Shown here: positions 47,887-56,896 of the stretch, in pieces
Numbering within the stretch: position 1 is the stretch's first letter
Layout of the letters: every line of letters begins with the position of its first letter
Assembly (NCBI GenBank): GCA_029238665.1
Contig: JAQWFQ010000008.1
Coordinates: 1-56,896 of the forward strand
Source of the DNA: Crocinitomicaceae bacterium
GTDB taxonomy: Bacteria > Bacteroidota > Bacteroidia > Flavobacteriales_D > Crocinitomicaceae
DNA: 56,896 bases
Direction of reading: 5' to 3'
Translations under genes and position numbers: made by a program
Notes under the pieces: model-generated
Database searches by the model: none
The model's input: only the letters and a program-made list of their open reading frames with translations
What the model was told of the DNA's origin: nothing

Positions 47887-50316
47887 CTATTGATTGGAGT
47901 TCTTTCTTCTAAAACGACTTAAAAAGGACTTGTTGCTCTCTTCAAAACCGTAACCATAACCATAACCATAACCATAACCATAACCATAACCATAACCATA
48001 ATAGTTGCGCTTGTTTTGGTCCTTTACATCATTCAATATTAGCGCAATGTTACTGACTTTAGAGTTTTCATGTAATTGTTTTGGTATTTCCATTAAACGC
48101 TTATCTGCGTAGTTTGCACGAGTGACAAAAAGCGTCAGGTCTACATGAGGAACAATTAGTTGTGTGTCAGTAACGACTCCTATTGGCGCTGTGTCAATCA
48201 GTATGTAGTCGTATTCCTTACGGAGTGAATCAATAAGTTGCTTTAAGCGTGTAGAGTATAGTAACTCACTTGGGTTTGGAGGTATAGGCCCTGAGAAAAT
48301 ATAGCTTAAGTTTTTGTGGTCTTCACTTTGATGGGTAATTTCTTGATGGGTCATTTGGTGATTTATCAAGTAGTTTGTTATTCCATCTTTTGACGAATCA
48401 ACATTTAATAGCTTCGTCAGTTTTGGGGAGCGTAAATCCATTCCAACAACGATAACCTTTTTATTTGTTAAGCCAATTGAGACCGCTAGGTTGTAAGTGA
48501 TAAATGTTTTTCCTTCTCCTTTAACAGAAGAGGTCACCGCAACAACACTACCATCCTTAGATTCTTCATGTAGCAAAAAATTGATGTTGGTACGTAACAT
48601 ACGAAATGCCTCTGAAATTGCAGAGCGTTGAGCTGGGTCCACTACGAGTTCTTCTTTTGTTTTGTTTACTGGAATATCTCCTGCAAATGGTAGGTTCAGT
48701 GACTCAAGATCTTTAATCGTTCTAATTTTATTGTCTAACAAGTCTTTGATGTAAATGATACTAATTGGTTTCAATAGACCAAGTAAAAGCGCTCCTAGGA
48801 GAATTATTTTTTTATTTGGAGAAACGGGAATCCCACTCGAGTATGGTTCGTCAATAATGATTGTGTTACCAAGAGTTGCAGCCATGGCAATTTCATTTTC
48901 TTCACGCTTTTGTAAAAGGTATAGGTATAAGTTCTCTTTAATTTGTTGCTGTCGTGCAATTGATCGGTATTCACGCTCGTATTCAGGAATTGATGCAATT
49001 TTAGATTGATTTTGTTTTGCTTCTAATTCGAGTTTTGTCAACTTAATTTCTAGGGTAGAGCTTAAGTTCTTTAAACTGGCGCTTAAACTAACTTTTATGC
49101 CAGCAAGTTCTTCCTTTAATGCGCTTACTAGCGGATTATTTTCGTTGGAAAACTCAAGTAATCTGTTACGTCCTAATACCTTGGTGTTATATTGCGCAAT
49201 GTTTGAAGCGATAGAGGCGTCTTTAAACCCTAGGTTTGTTGGAAGTAAAACTTCATACCCTGATTGCTCTTTTAAGTATGCTGTCATATATTCAGAAAGC
49301 TCTAACTCAATCGAAACCTGTGTAATTTCTCCTTCGAGTTCTTTATTTAATTCAATAAATAACTGTGCATCGGATCTAAGGTCTGTTATGTTTTTTGCAG
49401 TCTTATAGTTTTGCCCTTCTACCTCTACAATTGAAAGCTCTTCATTAATAACTTTCATACGGTCATTAATAAAATCACTCGTTGTTTTTGTGATTTCTCT
49501 TTTGTCGTCAACTACATTTTGTTCATGCAGGTGAATCAGGGTAGAAATAATGGCATTATTTTCATCTGTATCTGGCCCTTGTAGTGAAATTTTTAAAACT
49601 GACGCATCGTCGTTAACGGCTTTAATTGTTATTTCTTCTTGAAGAAATAATGCCTGGTTTTGTAGAGATGTTAATTGAACCGAAAATGTTCTCCCTTCGT
49701 ATTCAGGTATGTATGTATTTGTTTTGTGGAGTATTACACTACCAATAGGGGAAGAGAATGGAGTGCCAAAAACAAATGTCCCTAACTCGACATCATCTTC
49801 TTCATCCGTTAATAGGAAGGTGTTCCCTTCTTCAATCGTCAAGCTCCAGTCAACTTCCTTGTGGTGTAGTAAGCTGTCATTCGTTGAACTTTTAAGCGAT
49901 ATCGGCTCTTTTCCAAATGCAATCGGTATTTGTTGTGTACTTTGATAGATTTCATCTTTAATGTTCACCTTAACACTTAGGTTTAAGTTATCTGAAACTT
50001 TCTTCAGTAGGGTTAAGGATTTAAAGAGCTCAATTTCATTTTCTAAATTTACACTTCCTGAAGACAGTCCGAGGTCTTCAAAAATTTCCATGTTTGAAGA
50101 TAGCCCTCCGCTATTATCTTCCTTAATTAATACTTTTGCTGTCGATTTATATTGTGGCGTTGAAAAGTTTAAGAAGCAAAATGCAACAATGAGACAAATA
50201 AATACAGACATCGCCATCCACTGCCAGTTTTGAAGATAGCGGGCAATCAAATCTTTAATGTTGATTTCTTCGTTGTTTTGTTTTTCAAATAATGGAGGAG
50301 TGTACTGTTTTGACAT
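47887..50316 (-). CDS. Exopolysaccharide tyrosine autokinase (Wzc type) with Tyr-Gly repeat tail
   Basis: Wzc proteins control polymer length and export by cycles of tyrosine autophosphorylation. The 809-residue protein has an N-terminal Wzz domain with a first membrane helix at about 33-52, a long coiled-coil periplasmic part and a second helix near 505-525. The cytoplasmic BY-kinase has Walker A VKGEGKT, Walker A' VVGMDLRSPKL and Walker B YILIDTAPIG. The C-terminus has one Tyr plus nine Tyr-Gly units before FEES, giving ten tyrosines in a hexanucleotide-repeat segment. The gene follows the export lipoprotein directly and belongs to the same minus-strand locus. Confidence 0.93.
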   Translation of the reverse strand: MSKQYTPPLFEKQNNEEINIKDLIARYLQNWQWMAMSVFICLIVAFCFLNFSTPQYKSTAKVLIKEDNSGGLSSNMEIFEDLGLSSGSVNLENEIELFKSLTLLKKVSDNLNLSVKVNIKDEIYQSTQQIPIAFGKEPISLKSSTNDSLLHHKEVDWSLTIEEGNTFLLTDEEDDVELGTFVFGTPFSSPIGSVILHKTNTYIPEYEGRTFSVQLTSLQNQALFLQEEITIKAVNDDASVLKISLQGPDTDENNAIISTLIHLHEQNVVDDKREITKTTSDFINDRMKVINEELSIVEVEGQNYKTAKNITDLRSDAQLFIELNKELEGEITQVSIELELSEYMTAYLKEQSGYEVLLPTNLGFKDASIASNIAQYNTKVLGRNRLLEFSNENNPLVSALKEELAGIKVSLSASLKNLSSTLEIKLTKLELEAKQNQSKIASIPEYEREYRSIARQQQIKENLYLYLLQKREENEIAMAATLGNTIIIDEPYSSGIPVSPNKKIILLGALLLGLLKPISIIYIKDLLDNKIRTIKDLESLNLPFAGDIPVNKTKEELVVDPAQRSAISEAFRMLRTNINFLLHEESKDGSVVAVTSSVKGEGKTFITYNLAVSIGLTNKKVIVVGMDLRSPKLTKLLNVDSSKDGITNYLINHQMTHQEITHQSEDHKNLSYIFSGPIPPNPSELLYSTRLKQLIDSLRKEYDYILIDTAPIGVVTDTQLIVPHVDLTLFVTRANYADKRLMEIPKQLHENSKVSNIALILNDVKDQNKRNYYGYGYGYGYGYGYGYGYGFEESNKSFLSRFRRKNSNQ
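47948..48001 (-). repeat. Hexanucleotide microsatellite encoding the kinase tyrosine cluster
   Basis: Eight perfect tandem copies of CCATAA (47954-48001) plus one variant, CCGTAA (47948-47953). On the minus strand each unit reads TAT GGT, so one unit is one Tyr-Gly pair. Gain or loss of a unit keeps the frame and changes the number of phosphorylatable tyrosines by one. Confidence 0.95.
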
Positions 50317-51093
50317 TTATTTGGAGGAAATTAAAGTAATAGTTGTAATAATCAAAGATGTCAATGAAATGAATACAGAGCCCGTTGTTTTCCATATTGT
50401 AGAATTTGATCGAGCTGCTGCATTGGGTTCAATATATACGACATCATTTTGCTGGAGATAATATACTGGAGAGTTAAAGAGTGTGTTCTCTGTTAAGTTA
50501 ACACGAAATTCTTGTTTTTTTCCATTGTTATCACGTATAACTAATACATTGTTACGTACTCCAGTTATTTTTAAATCACCAGCTAAACCAATTGCTTCAA
50601 GAATTGTAATGCGTTCGTTGGGTACTTTAAAACTGCCTGGTTTTTTAACCTCTCCCAATACAGTTACTTTGAAGTTTAAAATTTGGATATTAACCACAGG
50701 ATTGTTTACATATGCTTTAAGTTTTTCTCTAAGCATTTCGGTTGCTTCCATTCGATTAAGTCCTGCAATTTCAATACTTCCTAGTATAGGTAATTGTATA
50801 TTTCCGTTTGCATCAATGAGATACCCCGATTTCTCATTGTTTCCTTGTACGTAACCGTTATTTACATTTCCTGCATTTCCAAGAATGGGAGGCAGGTTAA
50901 ATACGGCAACAACCTCTGGATTATCTCCAGCAACTATAATGGAAATGAAGTCATCAGTTTTAAGAGTAGGAGTGAAGTTAGTTTGAGCTTCCCCAATCAT
51001 TTCTTTTTGGAAATAAACGAGTTTTTTACGTGTTTGACACGATGCCAATAAAAACAGAATAAAAAACAAAAAGGAGTATGATAACTTAAGCAT
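50317..51093 (-). CDS. Polysaccharide export lipoprotein (Wza family)
   Basis: The 258-residue protein has a lipoprotein signal with lipobox LASC (Cys19), a Poly_export domain starting near DDFISIIVAGDNPEV (about 46-60) and an SLBB domain with VTVLGEVKKPGSF and ITILEAIGLAGDL (about 148-185). A C-terminal helix (SVFISLTSLIITTITLI) could cross the outer membrane as in Wza. It is short for Wza and close to the Bacteroidota form, which pairs with the kinase encoded immediately downstream. Confidence 0.92.
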   Translation of the reverse strand: MLKLSYSFLFFILFLLASCQTRKKLVYFQKEMIGEAQTNFTPTLKTDDFISIIVAGDNPEVVAVFNLPPILGNAGNVNNGYVQGNNEKSGYLIDANGNIQLPILGSIEIAGLNRMEATEMLREKLKAYVNNPVVNIQILNFKVTVLGEVKKPGSFKVPNERITILEAIGLAGDLKITGVRNNVLVIRDNNGKKQEFRVNLTENTLFNSPVYYLQQNDVVYIEPNAAARSNSTIWKTTGSVFISLTSLIITTITLISSK

Positions 51094-51185: not shown

Positions 51186-52277
51186 TTAGGTTTTAGCGTC
51201 TTTTTTTAGTTCAATTTCAGCGCTCCATTTGTTCAGTGTCAATGTTATGAAGAAGATGATTATAGATAAAAAAATAAGGAGTGGAATAAGTCCAAGATCT
51301 CCAAGTATAAATACGAAAGAACAAGTGATTATTAAAAAATTTAAACAGCTAATCGTAAAGGCTGTTCTTCTGTGAGACCATTGTAGTTTATCAATCATAA
51401 TGTGATGAACATGGAATCTATCAGCAGAAAAAGGGTTTCTTTTTTGGAGTATCCTTATGGTGAAAACCCGCACAACGTCATAAATGGGAATAAGTATAAT
51501 GATAACCATTAAAGTAGGAATGTATCTATGGTGGAAAGGAAACATATTCAACTCATGGTCGAATGCTAATAGTCGAATACTCATTAAGGCAATTAAAAAA
51601 CCAATGACAAGTGACCCTGTATCGCCCATAAATATTTTATTGGATTCAGATAGGTTAAAAAGCAGAAAGCCCAATAATGCACCAATCATTGTAACAGCAG
51701 TTAGGGCTAATAAATAGTCACCTGTCCAGAAAAAACAAATTGCAAAACAGGTTAATCCTAGTGTGCTTATAGAGGCAGCAAGGCCGTCAATTCCATCTAT
51801 AAGGTTATAGGCGTTAATAATGGCAATCATAATTAATAGCGACAGTGGTGTGTTAACCCAGACGGGCATGTTAAATACGCCAAAAAAAACGTGAAAATTT
51901 TGAATTTCAAAGCTGGTGTGATTTAATAGGATTAAACACGCTATAATTTGACCTATAAATTTAATTTTTGAACCCAAGCCAACTAAGTCGTCTTTTAGCC
52001 CCATGAAGAAAAGAATAGTAACCCCAGGTAAAATAGAGATTGAGATGTTAGAGGTGTCAAATTGGTCGGTGATACAAAAAGAAAAAAGAAACGTAATAAA
52101 GAAAGCAATCCCACCTAAACTAGCTGTAGATTTTGTGTGAGAACTTCTATTGTTCGGTGTATCCATTAAACGTTTCGAATGCCCAACATCTTTTACCGTT
52201 GGTACAAGATAGGCTGAGATTAAAAAAGAACAAAGGAGTGATCCTAATGCGTAGATATAAATCTCTTCAGTAAACAT
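51186..52277 (-). CDS. WecA/MraY-type undecaprenyl-phosphate phosphosugar transferase
   Basis: This enzyme starts glycan synthesis by moving a sugar-1-phosphate (often GlcNAc-P) onto undecaprenyl phosphate. The 363-residue, roughly 11-helix protein has the family aspartates DD (96-97), NLIDGIDG (158-165), MGDTGS (217-222) and the HVHH (289-292) sugar-recognition motif. The last is typical of WecA-like rather than MraY enzymes. It probably initiates the polymer made by this locus. Confidence 0.92.
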   Translation of the reverse strand: MFTEEIYIYALGSLLCSFLISAYLVPTVKDVGHSKRLMDTPNNRSSHTKSTASLGGIAFFITFLFSFCITDQFDTSNISISILPGVTILFFMGLKDDLVGLGSKIKFIGQIIACLILLNHTSFEIQNFHVFFGVFNMPVWVNTPLSLLIMIAIINAYNLIDGIDGLAASISTLGLTCFAICFFWTGDYLLALTAVTMIGALLGFLLFNLSESNKIFMGDTGSLVIGFLIALMSIRLLAFDHELNMFPFHHRYIPTLMVIIILIPIYDVVRVFTIRILQKRNPFSADRFHVHHIMIDKLQWSHRRTAFTISCLNFLIITCSFVFILGDLGLIPLLIFLSIIIFFITLTLNKWSAEIELKKDAKT

Positions 52278-52458: not shown

Positions 52459-53307
52459 CTAGAGTTGAATGACCTTGGTTTTTTCCCAATCGATTAAATT
52501 GTTTGCCGTTGAAATGTCAATAAAATCAAAATCTGAAAGCCAAGAATTTAGTTTTTTACTTGCTGTTTTTAACCCGACATAGGATTTGAATTTCCTTGGT
52601 AAAGAAAGCCCATCAATCATAGGTTGGCCAGGGTCTAAATCTCTAGGGTGTAGGTATGACATTACATAATCTGATTTTTCTGTCCATCGTTTAATTGATT
52701 TATACGGAAACAGTCTAAAATAGCCCCCTCCAGAAAATATAACAGGTTTATTTAACAGCTTGTATGTGTTTATTGGAAACTCTTTTAATTGAACACCATT
52801 ATATTTTAAAATAGATGGTTCTGCAACCCCGTAAGATGGGAGTCCTCCATGGGATCTTCCAGCAGGAAACACAGACGAATCAATTTCAATTCCCAATTCA
52901 TACAACACTTCAAAGGCCCATTTGTTTTCTTCAGTAATAGAAAATCCAGGAGCTCGAAACATTGTTACTTTTTTTCCGGAAATATCTTCTAGTGTCTTAA
53001 TTGATCGATTTACATCTTGGTAAAACCCATTTCGATCTTGTTCGTAAACGAGTTGATGCAATGTTGTATGGCTACCGATTTCATGACCTTTATTACAAAT
53101 TTCTCGAATTAATTCAGGATACTTTTCAGCAATCCACCCCAGTACAAAAAAAGAAGCCTTGGCATTAACGTTTTCCAACACTTCATAAATCCGGTCCATA
53201 TTTTGATGGATACGAGGTTCGTAAGCGGCCCAGTCTTTTTCTGTTTTGGTTGACTCATTGTCTAAAATGTGAAACCACTCTTCAATATCAAAGGTTAATA
53301 TATTCAT
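52459..53307 (-). CDS. Polysaccharide deacetylase (DUF3473/PEP-CTERM-locus type)
   Basis: A NodB-fold deacetylase of 282 residues. The metal site is visible as FDIEEWF (Asp7) and the HxxxH motif of SHTTLH (His80, His84), with FRAPGFS (117-123) supplying the next conserved residues. The C-terminal part (about 225-282: SYLHPRDLDPG) is of the DUF3473 type seen in exopolysaccharide loci. It probably removes N-acetyl groups from a polymer or lipid-linked sugar. No exosortase gene is visible. Confidence 0.9.
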   Translation of the reverse strand: MNILTFDIEEWFHILDNESTKTEKDWAAYEPRIHQNMDRIYEVLENVNAKASFFVLGWIAEKYPELIREICNKGHEIGSHTTLHQLVYEQDRNGFYQDVNRSIKTLEDISGKKVTMFRAPGFSITEENKWAFEVLYELGIEIDSSVFPAGRSHGGLPSYGVAEPSILKYNGVQLKEFPINTYKLLNKPVIFSGGGYFRLFPYKSIKRWTEKSDYVMSYLHPRDLDPGQPMIDGLSLPRKFKSYVGLKTASKKLNSWLSDFDFIDISTANNLIDWEKTKVIQL

Positions 53308-53925
53308 CTACTGCTTTTTATTAAAGTAAGCGTTAAAAGCCGATGTGTTTTCACATTCATGCATCTTGTCCCCGTTAACTATTATTGTTTTTTTAGAGAT
53401 AGCTGCCAATGAAACATCACTGTAGCTATCCGTGTATGTTACGTCAATTACCTCTACACCTTCCTTTGATAAAGCGTCAACTTTCTTTGCTTTAAAACAA
53501 TTTTCTTTTAACCCAACAACAGTTTCTTCTTGAAACATGAGCTGAGAGCCTAAGACCCTAACGTTACTAGGAAACAGTGGTCTTAAATAGTCAATAAATG
53601 ACGCGCTTACAATGTAAATGGTATCTTTTGATAGAAAGTCAAATTCTTTGTATAGGGTGTTAAGCTTAATTTTCTTTGAGTAATTTAAAGCTTCTACCTT
53701 CAGTTGACTCTGGCTCATTCCCTTTAAAAAAAGTGCAATCCCAACACGTTTTAATTCGGTATTAGATAAGACCTTGAATTTTGCCAATACCATCGTGAAG
53801 ACGTAGATAAAAACCTTAAATGGGTAGGTGATATTCTTCTTACTAGCTGAAGAAAAAAAACCGAATAAGGTATCAGAGTAACTTAAGGTTTTATCGAAGT
53901 CAAAAACAATTATAGTGGTATTCAT
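53308..53925 (-). CDS. HAD-IB family phosphatase/hydrolase
   Basis: A 205-residue HAD-superfamily protein with the nucleophile motif VFDFDKTL (Asp9, Asp11), the second motif YIVSASF and the metal-binding pair in TYTDSYSDVSL. The helical cap (about 20-80) fits subfamily IB, which includes phosphoserine phosphatase and acyl-phosphate hydrolases. Its ATG overlaps the stop of the ATP-grasp gene by four bases, so the two probably act on the same substrate. Confidence 0.85.
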   Translation of the reverse strand: MNTTIIVFDFDKTLSYSDTLFGFFSSASKKNITYPFKVFIYVFTMVLAKFKVLSNTELKRVGIALFLKGMSQSQLKVEALNYSKKIKLNTLYKEFDFLSKDTIYIVSASFIDYLRPLFPSNVRVLGSQLMFQEETVVGLKENCFKAKKVDALSKEGVEVIDVTYTDSYSDVSLAAISKKTIIVNGDKMHECENTSAFNAYFNKKQ

Positions 53926-55046
53926 CGTTTAAATATTGTCTTTATTTTCTTTAAATCAAAATAGGAAAAGAATATAAATTTTAAGGACCTCCAACGCGAA
54001 CTATATGAAAAATTAATATAACACGTATTGGGTTGTATTTTAAAAAACTTAAAGGGGTTAGAGTAATGCTTCATCCAGTAGATTATATCATATGGAAAAA
54101 CCCAGCGTATATACCTGGTTGTATCTATCTTTTGCGCTTTAACAGCCTTGTTCAAACAACCGTTTACGTAGCTGGTTAAAAAGTTTGCATTGCAAAATTC
54201 TGAAAGCATTATTGACCCCCATAACCTAGGATTGATCTCGATTAGTTTGTAAAGGCCATCTCGTTCATCAAAGAGAAACTCGATCATTACGAAGCCTGAC
54301 CAATCCAATTCTTTTACCACTTGAGCTCCAAGGGTTTTTATTTCTTGGTTGCATTCGGATTTAGAATACACGGTTACGCCTCCAATTTCGGGATATGTTC
54401 TTATACGCTTATGGCTATAGAAAGATATAATCTCCCCCTGTTGACATAAATAAAACCCGGCTTGAATATCTTTTGGATTTGGCAATCGTTCTTGAACAAA
54501 ATCAGTTTCGAAATCTATGGTGCAATTATCCAGTTGCTCCTCATTTTCAAGGTAAACAATTCCTTTTGCACCTGAGCCAAGGCTCGGTTTTTTTATAATT
54601 GGGAACTTAAAGTTCTTGTTTTTTAAAACCGATTCAGAAATATGTTTGGGACAAGAAATGCTTTTTTCTTCACAGAATAAGTTCAGCTGCTCCTTATGTC
54701 TTGATAATTGGAAGTTTGAAAGGCTAGGGAGTAAGTATTTAAAGTTTAACTCCTTGTTGTCTGTAATGAATTTCAAGAAGTTAAACGTAGTACTTTCTTC
54801 GATTGGAAGGTATATTATTTCTTCTGTGCTATACTTTTTCGAGATATTTAATAAGTCCTTGTCAAAATTTTCATGCGTTAAAACTTCAAAATCACGGGTT
54901 TCATGAAAATGTTTAAGCTTAAATCGATTAGACCTAGAGTCTGATGGAATTGTAAATATAAAGTCTCCAATAGGGTAGTGAGCCTTAAGGATATTTATGA
55001 CGTCAAAAGACTTTCTAAAAAAGATATCAGTTAGTAATATTTTCAT
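53922..55046 (-). CDS. ATP-grasp ligase of the exopolysaccharide locus
   Basis: The 374-residue protein has an N-terminal Rossmann-like part, then an ATP-grasp fold with KKPSLGSGAKG (glycine-rich loop, 152-162), FVQERL (183-188), MIEF (254-257) and IEINPRLWGS (269-278) carrying the Mg-binding Glu270 and Asn272. ATP-grasp enzymes join a carboxylate to an amine through an acyl phosphate. In this setting it may attach an amino acid or similar acid to a sugar, but this is inference. The genes on both sides are directly coupled. Confidence 0.85.
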   Translation of the reverse strand: MKILLTDIFFRKSFDVINILKAHYPIGDFIFTIPSDSRSNRFKLKHFHETRDFEVLTHENFDKDLLNISKKYSTEEIIYLPIEESTTFNFLKFITDNKELNFKYLLPSLSNFQLSRHKEQLNLFCEEKSISCPKHISESVLKNKNFKFPIIKKPSLGSGAKGIVYLENEEQLDNCTIDFETDFVQERLPNPKDIQAGFYLCQQGEIISFYSHKRIRTYPEIGGVTVYSKSECNQEIKTLGAQVVKELDWSGFVMIEFLFDERDGLYKLIEINPRLWGSIMLSEFCNANFLTSYVNGCLNKAVKAQKIDTTRYIRWVFPYDIIYWMKHYSNPFKFFKIQPNTCYINFSYSSRWRSLKFIFFSYFDLKKIKTIFKR

Positions 55047-55050
55047 ACTG

Positions 55051-55950
55051 CTATTCTCCCCATTTACTTAGGTCTCGGTTTAACAACTTCTCTAAGCTAG
55101 TTATATCTGTTTTAAAGTATTGCTTTAGTAGTTCTTGATCAGATTGATTTATTGATTTTTTTTGAAGTGAACGACTAGCAACTTTTTCAAGTATACTTCG
55201 TGGTATAATTGATTTTAAGATTTCTCGTGTGTTTGTTGCTATTTTGTTGTTTCGGTTTAATATAAACTTGGCTACAAAATTCTTTGGAGTTCCAGATGGA
55301 TTGTGTTCAACTGAAGTATCTGTTTTGAAATCTGCATCAACATCTAAAAAAGAATAAACTTCTTTCATAACACTTTTTGTGTCTGATTTTAGATCTTCTT
55401 GAAGAACAACCTTTACATTGGTAAATGTATCTAAAAATGTTTTTACCTGCTCAGCGTAGAGCCCAGCTTTTTTATATCCCCAAATAAAGTCCCAATTGTC
55501 TTTCAACCTGTCCTCTTCGGCCGCTAAACCTTCTCTAAAAGAGAGCGGTTCTCTACTGTCTCGTTTTAAGTACATGTAGGCTGAAAAGGCTCTTTTTACA
55601 GGATTTCGTAAAATGATTATTATTGGAATATCACCTAAGGTTTCCTTAATTAAAGGAGCTGTTTGTTGATGGAAAAACAAATAGTCAGGGCTGGCTTCAC
55701 CTATTTTTTTGTAGCTCGATAAGTCTTTAAATAGATTTAGGTATTCAGACCAATCTTTTACGGCATATTTATCTACAGAGTCATCTCCAGACCCATTGTG
55801 TGGGAATTCCAATTGGCTGCTTGAAAAGTATTTAGGCTCCTTTAAATCTGGAAACCCAATGTCGTTATGCTGTTTTAAATAGTAATATAATGCAGTCGTT
55901 CCTGCTTTAGCAGCACCTACAATTAAAAAATTTGGCTTTGATTTAGTCAT
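55051..55950 (-). CDS. PAPS-dependent sulfotransferase
   Basis: The 299-residue protein has the 5'-phosphosulfate loop GAAKAGTT (12-19) and the 3'-phosphate motif RNPVKRAFSAY (115-125), both standard for carbohydrate sulfotransferases of the NodH/heparan type. It would transfer sulfate from PAPS to a sugar of the locus polymer. Its ATG overlaps the stop of the upstream glycosyltransferase by eight bases, and the ATP-grasp gene follows after four. Confidence 0.9.
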   Translation of the reverse strand: MTKSKPNFLIVGAAKAGTTALYYYLKQHNDIGFPDLKEPKYFSSSQLEFPHNGSGDDSVDKYAVKDWSEYLNLFKDLSSYKKIGEASPDYLFFHQQTAPLIKETLGDIPIIIILRNPVKRAFSAYMYLKRDSREPLSFREGLAAEEDRLKDNWDFIWGYKKAGLYAEQVKTFLDTFTNVKVVLQEDLKSDTKSVMKEVYSFLDVDADFKTDTSVEHNPSGTPKNFVAKFILNRNNKIATNTREILKSIIPRSILEKVASRSLQKKSINQSDQELLKQYFKTDITSLEKLLNRDLSKWGE

Positions 55951-56896
55951 TAATTACAGAGTTAAAAATGTTCACGTATTTATCGGCTATATTTTCCCAA
56001 GTATAGTAATTCTGAATTCGAAGTGTACTTGCTTGTTTGAATGTGGATATCGTTTTGTCATCAGATCCACTATCAATCGTTTTTATTGTTTCCGATACAT
56101 CAACGTCATTTTTGAAAAAATAAGCAGCATTATCTAAAACTTCACGATTAAAGACATTATCATGTGCTACTGTTAAGTTTCCTGAGCCCATTGCTTCTAG
56201 AAGTGATGGGTTTGTTCCTCCAACAGAATGCCCATGGAAGTAAGCTTTACAATAGAGTCGTAATGTTGATAGTTTTTGTTGATCATAGACTCCTTCAATA
56301 AAACGAACATTTTCTGAAGCAAGTTGCATCAGTTTTTTTGCATGAGTTGTATTCGTGTTCCCTACAATTATTAGCGGTGACTTTTGAGTTGAATTTAAAT
56401 AGCCTTTGATAATAATCTCAACATTATTCTCTGGTTCTAATCGAGAAACAACTAGCAGGAAATTGTCTTTTACAAGCTTTAATTCCTCTAAATAATTTTC
56501 GCAATTGAAGCTGTCACTTGTTGCCACTGTATTTAAGTCAGATCCGTACTCTGCTACAAAAACATGTTTAGTTCGTTTGAATGTTTTTTTGAAAAAATCA
56601 CTGATTCCAATTGAATCGCAGACTAAATATTTTGAAAAAAGTGCTCCAAACATAAATTGAACAAATAAGGCTATTTTTTTCCACCAAACCCATTTCTCCC
56701 TTTTAAATCCTAATCCATCTGGATTAACGAAAATCTTCATTTTTGACCGCCTAAAGAACGGAATTGAAAAAACGCCACCAATACCACACATAACTGCTAC
56801 ATCTGCGTCCCAATTGTCTGCTATTTTTAAAGAGTCGTGATAAAATTTGATCGGGTTATTTGATTTCACATACGTGGAGTTTAATGTGTGAATCCC
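55943..56896 (-). CDS. Glycosyltransferase (DUF1972/GT4 type), 5' end outside the window
   Basis: The frame stays open to the right edge, so at least 317 residues are visible and the N-terminal part is missing. The visible part has IFVNPDGLGFKREKW, as in DUF1972-containing rhamnosyl-type transferases. The GT4 donor domain follows: VVSRLEPENN, then GGTNPSLLEAMGSGN with the EX7E-region glutamate. The GTG at 56869 could be called as a start, but upstream in-frame residues continue and the missing N-terminal domain argues against it. It is part of the exopolysaccharide operon. Confidence 0.85.
   Translation of the reverse strand, partial: GIHTLNSTYVKSNNPIKFYHDSLKIADNWDADVAVMCGIGGVFSIPFFRRSKMKIFVNPDGLGFKREKWVWWKKIALFVQFMFGALFSKYLVCDSIGISDFFKKTFKRTKHVFVAEYGSDLNTVATSDSFNCENYLEELKLVKDNFLLVVSRLEPENNVEIIIKGYLNSTQKSPLIIVGNTNTTHAKKLMQLASENVRFIEGVYDQQKLSTLRLYCKAYFHGHSVGGTNPSLLEAMGSGNLTVAHDNVFNREVLDNAAYFFKNDVDVSETIKTIDSGSDDKTISTFKQASTLRIQNYYTWENIADKYVNIFNSVIND

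Follow-up and report, generated by a model that had tools for sequence, protein, structure and literature searches.

The DNA analysed here, called the window, is the whole 56,896-nucleotide stretch of contig JAQWFQ010000008.1 (positions 1 to 56,896, forward strand) from the assembly GCA_029238665.1 of a Crocinitomicaceae bacterium. A minus-strand run of exopolysaccharide genes has at its end a kinase gene, and the part of this gene that encodes the C-terminal tail contains a hexanucleotide array. The features of the locus are as follows.

47887 to 50316, minus strand: coding sequence of a Wzc-type (PCP-2a) BY-kinase of 809 amino acids, with a Wzz/GNVR periplasmic part, a kinase domain, and a Tyr-Gly tail
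47890 to 47946, minus strand: C-terminal end past the tract, FEESNKSFLSRFRRKNSNQ, residues 791-809
47947 to 48000, minus strand: hexanucleotide array of nine in-frame units (eight TATGGT, then one TACGGT) encoding (Tyr-Gly)9, residues 773-790
48001 to 48003, minus strand: Tyr772 (TAT), the tenth tyrosine, immediately N-terminal of the units
48496 to 48519, minus strand: Walker A region of the kinase domain, residues 600-607, GEGKTFIT
50317 to 51093, minus strand: Wza-like polysaccharide export protein (Poly_export, SLBB)
51186 to 52277, minus strand: WecA-like initiating sugar-phosphate transferase (Glycos_transf_4)
52459 to 53307, minus strand: polysaccharide deacetylase with DUF3473, resembling those of the XrtA system but below the family cut-off
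53308 to 56869, minus strand: HAD-like, ATP-grasp, sulfotransferase, and glycosyltransferase genes belonging to this run, the last one located at the end of the contig and possibly truncated

Against the XrtA-system family TIGR03006, the deacetylase scored 253.6 bits and did not reach the cut-off of 276.2. Matches to phosphatases were found elsewhere in the genome; two are of the LMW-PTP type and one is of the CpsB/PHP type, and they lie on other contigs (C15 and C31).

That the protein is a Wzc-type kinase, as had been proposed in a sequence-only reading of this DNA, agrees with its position in the exopolysaccharide gene run and with several matches. The domains PF02706 (16-111), PF13807 (453-524), and AAA_31 (591-722) were all above cut-off, as was the match to TIGR01007, and the sequence matched E. 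coli Wzc structures with an E value of 7e-46. A Foldseek search with the predicted kinase domain gave an E value of 6e-22 to 9exo, and 3la6, 2ved, 3bfv, and 3cio were among the best 50 matches. The predicted domain (mean pLDDT 83.3) superposes on structures of Wzc, CapAB, and Etk; the tail was predicted with pLDDT values below 50. The motifs that we take to be Walker A, A', and B read GEGKT (within the segment GEGKTFIT), VGMDLR, and ILIDTAP. The canonical Walker A' motif has an Asp at the first of its two acidic positions, and in the window kinase this place is taken by a Gly (residue 625, window 48442-48444) that is invariant in 32 aligned sequences, the window included; another group of relatives reads LDLDLR. 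An apparent absence of Walker A from several relatives was rejected when a wider pattern recovered SEGKT and KEGKS forms. Three relatives (L006-L008) were unmatched by the wider pattern, yet they are kinase matches by phmmer.

The array is in frame with the kinase. Its nine units run from 48000 down to 47947, with TAT GGT eight times at residues 773-788 and TAC GGT at residues 789-790. Together with Tyr772 this gives ten tyrosines in residues 772-790, a C-terminal tyrosine cluster in which nine are placed at every second residue from 773 to 789, so that a YxY (i and i-2) pattern is present. In the CCATAA phase of the forward strand, eight perfect copies lie at 47954-48001 and one variant, CCGTAA, at 47948-47953. 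Tandem Repeats Finder reported positions 47946-48001 with a period of 6, 9.3 copies, and a score of 105, which was the best of 25 rows for the window. The perfect portion measures 51 bp (8.5 copies) and the whole array 54 bp. The description given by the sequence-only reading, namely eight CCATAA copies and one variant encoding a Tyr-Gly repeat with ten tyrosines, uniform TAT GGT codons with TAC in the last unit alone, and a frame in which each unit gained or lost is one Tyr-Gly pair, was borne out by the sequence, the translation, and the codon phase.

No longer perfect repeat was present in the scanned part of this genome. Three consecutive CCATAA units matched six times here, compared with a mean of 0.00 in 100 dinucleotide shuffles. 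A scan of 412,385 bases of the genome (the window and 355,489 bases of 20 further stretches; units of 1 to 15 bp, at least 3 copies, and at least 14 bp) found three perfect tandem repeats in total, which were the kinase tract of 51 bp and two others of 21 and 19 bp. Because the 412 kb contained no other long perfect simple repeat, there is no sign there of a wider habit of contingency loci. Across all 34 contigs of the genome (2.2 Mb), three TAYGGN units in a row had no second site. The 29 other window genes use TAT for 249 of 435 Tyr and GGT for 251 of 852 Gly; at these frequencies, the chance that eight given units are all TATGGT is 6.5e-7, and the chance that all are of any single unit type is 7.6e-6. 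A simulation with shrunken codon use of the gene gave p 1e-4 for the tract, a value near the floor of its 20,000 draws. In the remainder of the kinase gene TAT and GGT are minority codons (9 of 25 Tyr codons and 4 of 30 Gly codons), and codon preference therefore does not explain the purity.

Relatives of the kinase are common. A protein match was found in 34 of 34 genomes of the same genus (E ≤0.001, with G022 and G023 at 1e-5 to 1e-4 only) and in at least 235 of 240 genomes of the family. By phmmer, 245 distinct complete kinases were assembled, of which 240 were found without using the repeat; the other five came from a repeat-pattern search, and were left out of all counts based on the 240 kinases or their 185 tracts and kept in the main pair test described below. 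Excluded were repeated ORFs and two loci (L038 and L088) with a tail cut by a contig end. The sample represents part of the matched places, and one search contributed the best 80 of 567. At least three consecutive Tyr-Gly units are present in 185 of the 240 kinases and fewer in 55, and the longest run per kinase ranges from 0 to 14 units. In five tails (L051, L052, L054, L159, and L182) YS, YR, or YK steps occur among or instead of YG, and a Tyr is still found at every second residue. Close relatives often retain the unit number although their synonymous codons are scrambled. Synonymous codon mixing in relatives, which the sequence-only reading had named as evidence against its own proposal, was looked for and found, as 174 of the 185 tracts have no run of five identical units. 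Conservation thus applies to the peptide and does not extend to the DNA repeat. Judged from these comparisons, the Tyr-Gly peptide is old and probably kept by selection, and most relatives share the tail.

The purity of the DNA has a different distribution. Runs of at least five identical units occur in 11 of the 185 tracts, whereas 1.77 would be expected from how these genes use their codons. Three hexamers are represented among the 11, and nine changes account for them on the tree. Sisters carry different pure hexamers, with TATGGT in the window and TACGGT in L003, the relative nearest to it (67% identity); likewise, twelve TATGGC units in L082 contrast with eight successive TATGGT in the neighbouring L089. 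In another pair, L112 has seven units of pure TATGGT and its close relative L111 eight mixed units. Two pure tracts are longer than that of the window, with twelve TATGGC in L082 and twelve TATGGT in L204. Six TATGGT in a row were found in 8 of 399 genomes of the order, the window genome included. Of the 18 synonymous third positions in the window array, 1 differs, whereas the gene and that of L003 differ synonymously by 0.53 at fourfold sites (n=187) and by 0.42 at T/C sites (n=109), and the array is consequently much younger than the split between the two. Since pure runs exceed expectation and sister lineages carry different hexamers, repeated turnover of tandem units is indicated. The sequence data thus support a local and recent purity, produced by recent tandem expansion or turnover. 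The earlier proposal of a recent expansion stands in this respect, with sisters that have other hexamers and other unit numbers; the addition that this was so rather than selection on the protein alone holds in part, as the peptide is conserved and both processes are indicated.

Unit number can also be compared between nearest pairs separated by less than 0.7 substitutions per site. The number is shared in none of eight pairs that include a pure tract and in 27 of 55 pairs in which both tracts are mixed (Fisher 0.008). Removing the loci found by pattern, which occur in two of the eight pairs, left 0/6 versus 27/55 (0.03). The difference was not significant in pairs matched for distance (0/8 versus 11/35, p 0.09) or for distance and length (0/8 versus 2/7, p 0.2). 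Pure tracts can differ widely in unit number from their relatives, as in L001 with 9 units versus 5 in L003 and L150 with 10 versus 5 in L127. All of these are differences between species, each represented by one genome. The result agrees with slippage and is no proof of it, and purity may follow a change in unit number rather than cause it.

Identical neighbouring units are more frequent than expected from codon use, with 187 versus 141.0 in 134 tracts, 4 of which the pattern search had supplied, and 154 versus 131.6 in the set of 130. Permutation within tracts gave no excess of identical neighbours over all tracts and a deficit in mixed ones, and the idea that turnover is visible as a general excess of identical neighbours was rejected. 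In mixed tracts, defined as those of the 185 with at least three units and no run of five, adjacent units were identical in 136 of 900 cases compared with 171.4 by permutation (z -3.5; -1.7 to -2.6 with one tract per cluster). At a lag of two units, identity was found in 175 of 726 cases versus 137.9, a 12-bp period (+2.8 to +3.9 with one tract per cluster). This pattern points to duplication of two units at a time or to pure 6-bp repeats being avoided. In the pooled tracts of 130 kinases, GGT and GGC are relatively enriched and GGA and GGG depleted compared with the remainder of the genes (134 genes).

Known systems offer three comparisons. The first is with K30 Wzc of E. coli, in which no individual Tyr is decisive and what counts is how far the tail is phosphorylated. 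This tail reaches into the active site of a neighbour, where Tyr i is placed while the Tyr at i-2 lies in a pocket, and the octamer, which governs polymerisation, becomes looser with each further phosphorylation (PMC11986026, PMC8285477). The window kinase has in common with it the Wzc architecture, the kinase fold, and tail tyrosines at every second residue. The K30 tail differs in having no regular Tyr-Gly run in the protein alignment, and five of its tyrosines are named as phosphorylation targets. In a pairwise sequence alignment, the places of the pocket residues E675 and S679 are taken by L741 and P745 in the window kinase, so the chemistry of the ratchet may differ here.

The second is with Ptk1 of Porphyromonas gingivalis, a Bacteroidota BY-kinase that is needed for EPS and has five tyrosines at every second residue (PMC6759763, PMC8863745, PMC4082711). 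Recombinant Ptk1 made in E. coli was phosphorylated at Y775, 782, 784, 786, 788, and 790 (PMC6759763), which suggests that each step of such a Tyr run can be used, as the whole series from Y782 to Y790 was modified. Phosphatases of the LMW-PTP and PHP types act on Ptk1 (PMC6759763, PMC8863745), and both types are matched in the window genome (two LMW-PTP and one CpsB/PHP). The php1 gene adjoins ptk1 in P. gingivalis, whereas the phosphatase genes here are on other contigs. Repeat instability is not mentioned in the accessible parts of the three Ptk1 papers.

The third comparison is with coding repeats that are known to vary. In mutL, a 6-bp repeat of just three copies slips, and it could be locked by introducing synonymous changes (PMC2955026). 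Both repeats have an in-frame 6-bp unit that would slip without a frameshift, and the codon-mixed relatives of the kinase resemble a natural form of the lock; the mutL change is a switch from functional to defective, whereas a graded effect would be expected for the kinase tail. In tolA, contractions occurred at ≥6.9e-5, the response to some stresses was graded with the in-frame repeat number (PMC3477136), and unit number in a coding repeat altered protein length in frame, as it would here. The differences from tolA are its 15-bp units, its RecA-dependent contraction, and the fact that its variation and phenotypes were measured, while the kinase tract is known from sequence alone. No report of repeat-based variation of such a kinase was evident among the open-access papers listed, a collection with few subscription journals, and none of the 23 papers containing YGYGYG or GYGYGY looks related to BY-kinases by title and start of abstract. 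What seems new is the place of the repeat, in the ratchet tail of a kinase, and its recurrence across lineages.

We consider that the window contains a conserved ratchet tail made slippage-prone in this lineage, rather than a demonstrated contingency locus. A probability of about 0.7 is given to this explanation as a whole, which includes the assignment of the tail as the putative autophosphorylation tail of a Wzc-type BY-kinase. Selection would keep the tail as a run of tyrosines at every second residue, and, by analogy with the K30 Wzc model, the YxY run would feed stepwise through the active site of a neighbour while phosphorylation loosens the octamer. The DNA under the tail would have been homogenised recently as whole 6-bp units were gained and lost, through slippage or unequal exchange, and the pure tract left able to change by one Tyr-Gly pair, equivalent to one ratchet step, without a frameshift. 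We infer that slippage is the mechanism, that the tail is phosphorylated and ratcheted, and that each unit has a small graded effect. The graded effect is plausible because each unit would correspond to one step of the published phosphorylation ratchet, and in this sense the tuning of phosphotyrosine number unit by unit, which the sequence-only reading had put forward, is plausible by analogy.

A true graded contingency locus would require frequent variation of unit number within populations, an effect of Tyr number on exopolysaccharide amount or length, and variants selected in turn. The 51-bp perfect in-frame tract, the unit numbers of pure lineages that differ from those of their nearest relatives, the slippage of three 6-bp copies in mutL (PMC2955026), and the graded phenotypes of tolA (PMC3477136) speak for it, but it appears unlikely given that most relatives are codon-mixed, that about half of the both-mixed pairs keep their unit number, and that the genome sample has no other long perfect repeat. 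Furthermore, no single Tyr is essential in E. coli Wzc (PMC8285477), and by analogy one unit of nine may matter little. Another alternative is a neutral turnover, in which slippage is occasional, any unit number above a minimum is tolerated, and purity is transient and serves no function. The wide range of run lengths among the 240 kinases, the replacement of YG by YS, YR, or YK in several tails, and the pure L112, which stayed near the length of its mixed relative L111 after homogenisation, are in line with that account, which differs from the slippage-prone ratchet tail mainly in effect size. Many close mixed pairs keep the unit number despite scrambled codons, however, which suggests some selection on length, and other pure tracts (L001 and L150) are further in unit number from their relatives; neutral turnover is accordingly rated improbable.

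Selection for particular codons, or for mRNA structure near the end of the gene, could also have produced the uniformity instead of duplication, and the GGT and GGC enrichment of the pooled tracts would fit this. Sister lineages are, however, uniform for different codons (TAC GGT, TAT GGT, or TAT GGC), and in mixed tracts the identical neighbours fall short of the permuted number, which makes such selection very improbable. An error of copy number in the assembly is the least credible explanation; the genome is a draft of 34 contigs, but the contig continues on both sides of the array, pure tracts occur in other assemblies as well, and an array of 54 bp is shorter than ordinary sequencing reads. 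A bolder extension of the slippage-prone ratchet tail is that the Tyr-Gly tails of Bacteroidota BY-kinases are widespread in-frame tuning loci, in which mixed codons lock the step number in most lineages and pure tracts, as in this lineage, can slip, so that polymer export could be reset in single steps. The rarity of identical neighbours in mixed tracts relative to permutation suggests such locking, and we regard this extension as doubtful.

If the unit number is labile, evolution can alter the step count of a phosphorylation ratchet one step at a time. The tails found in nature, whose runs reach 14 units, provide material for testing how many tyrosines a BY-kinase needs, and the codon-mixed and codon-pure tracts constitute a natural experiment on the stabilisation of a repeat by synonymous sites.
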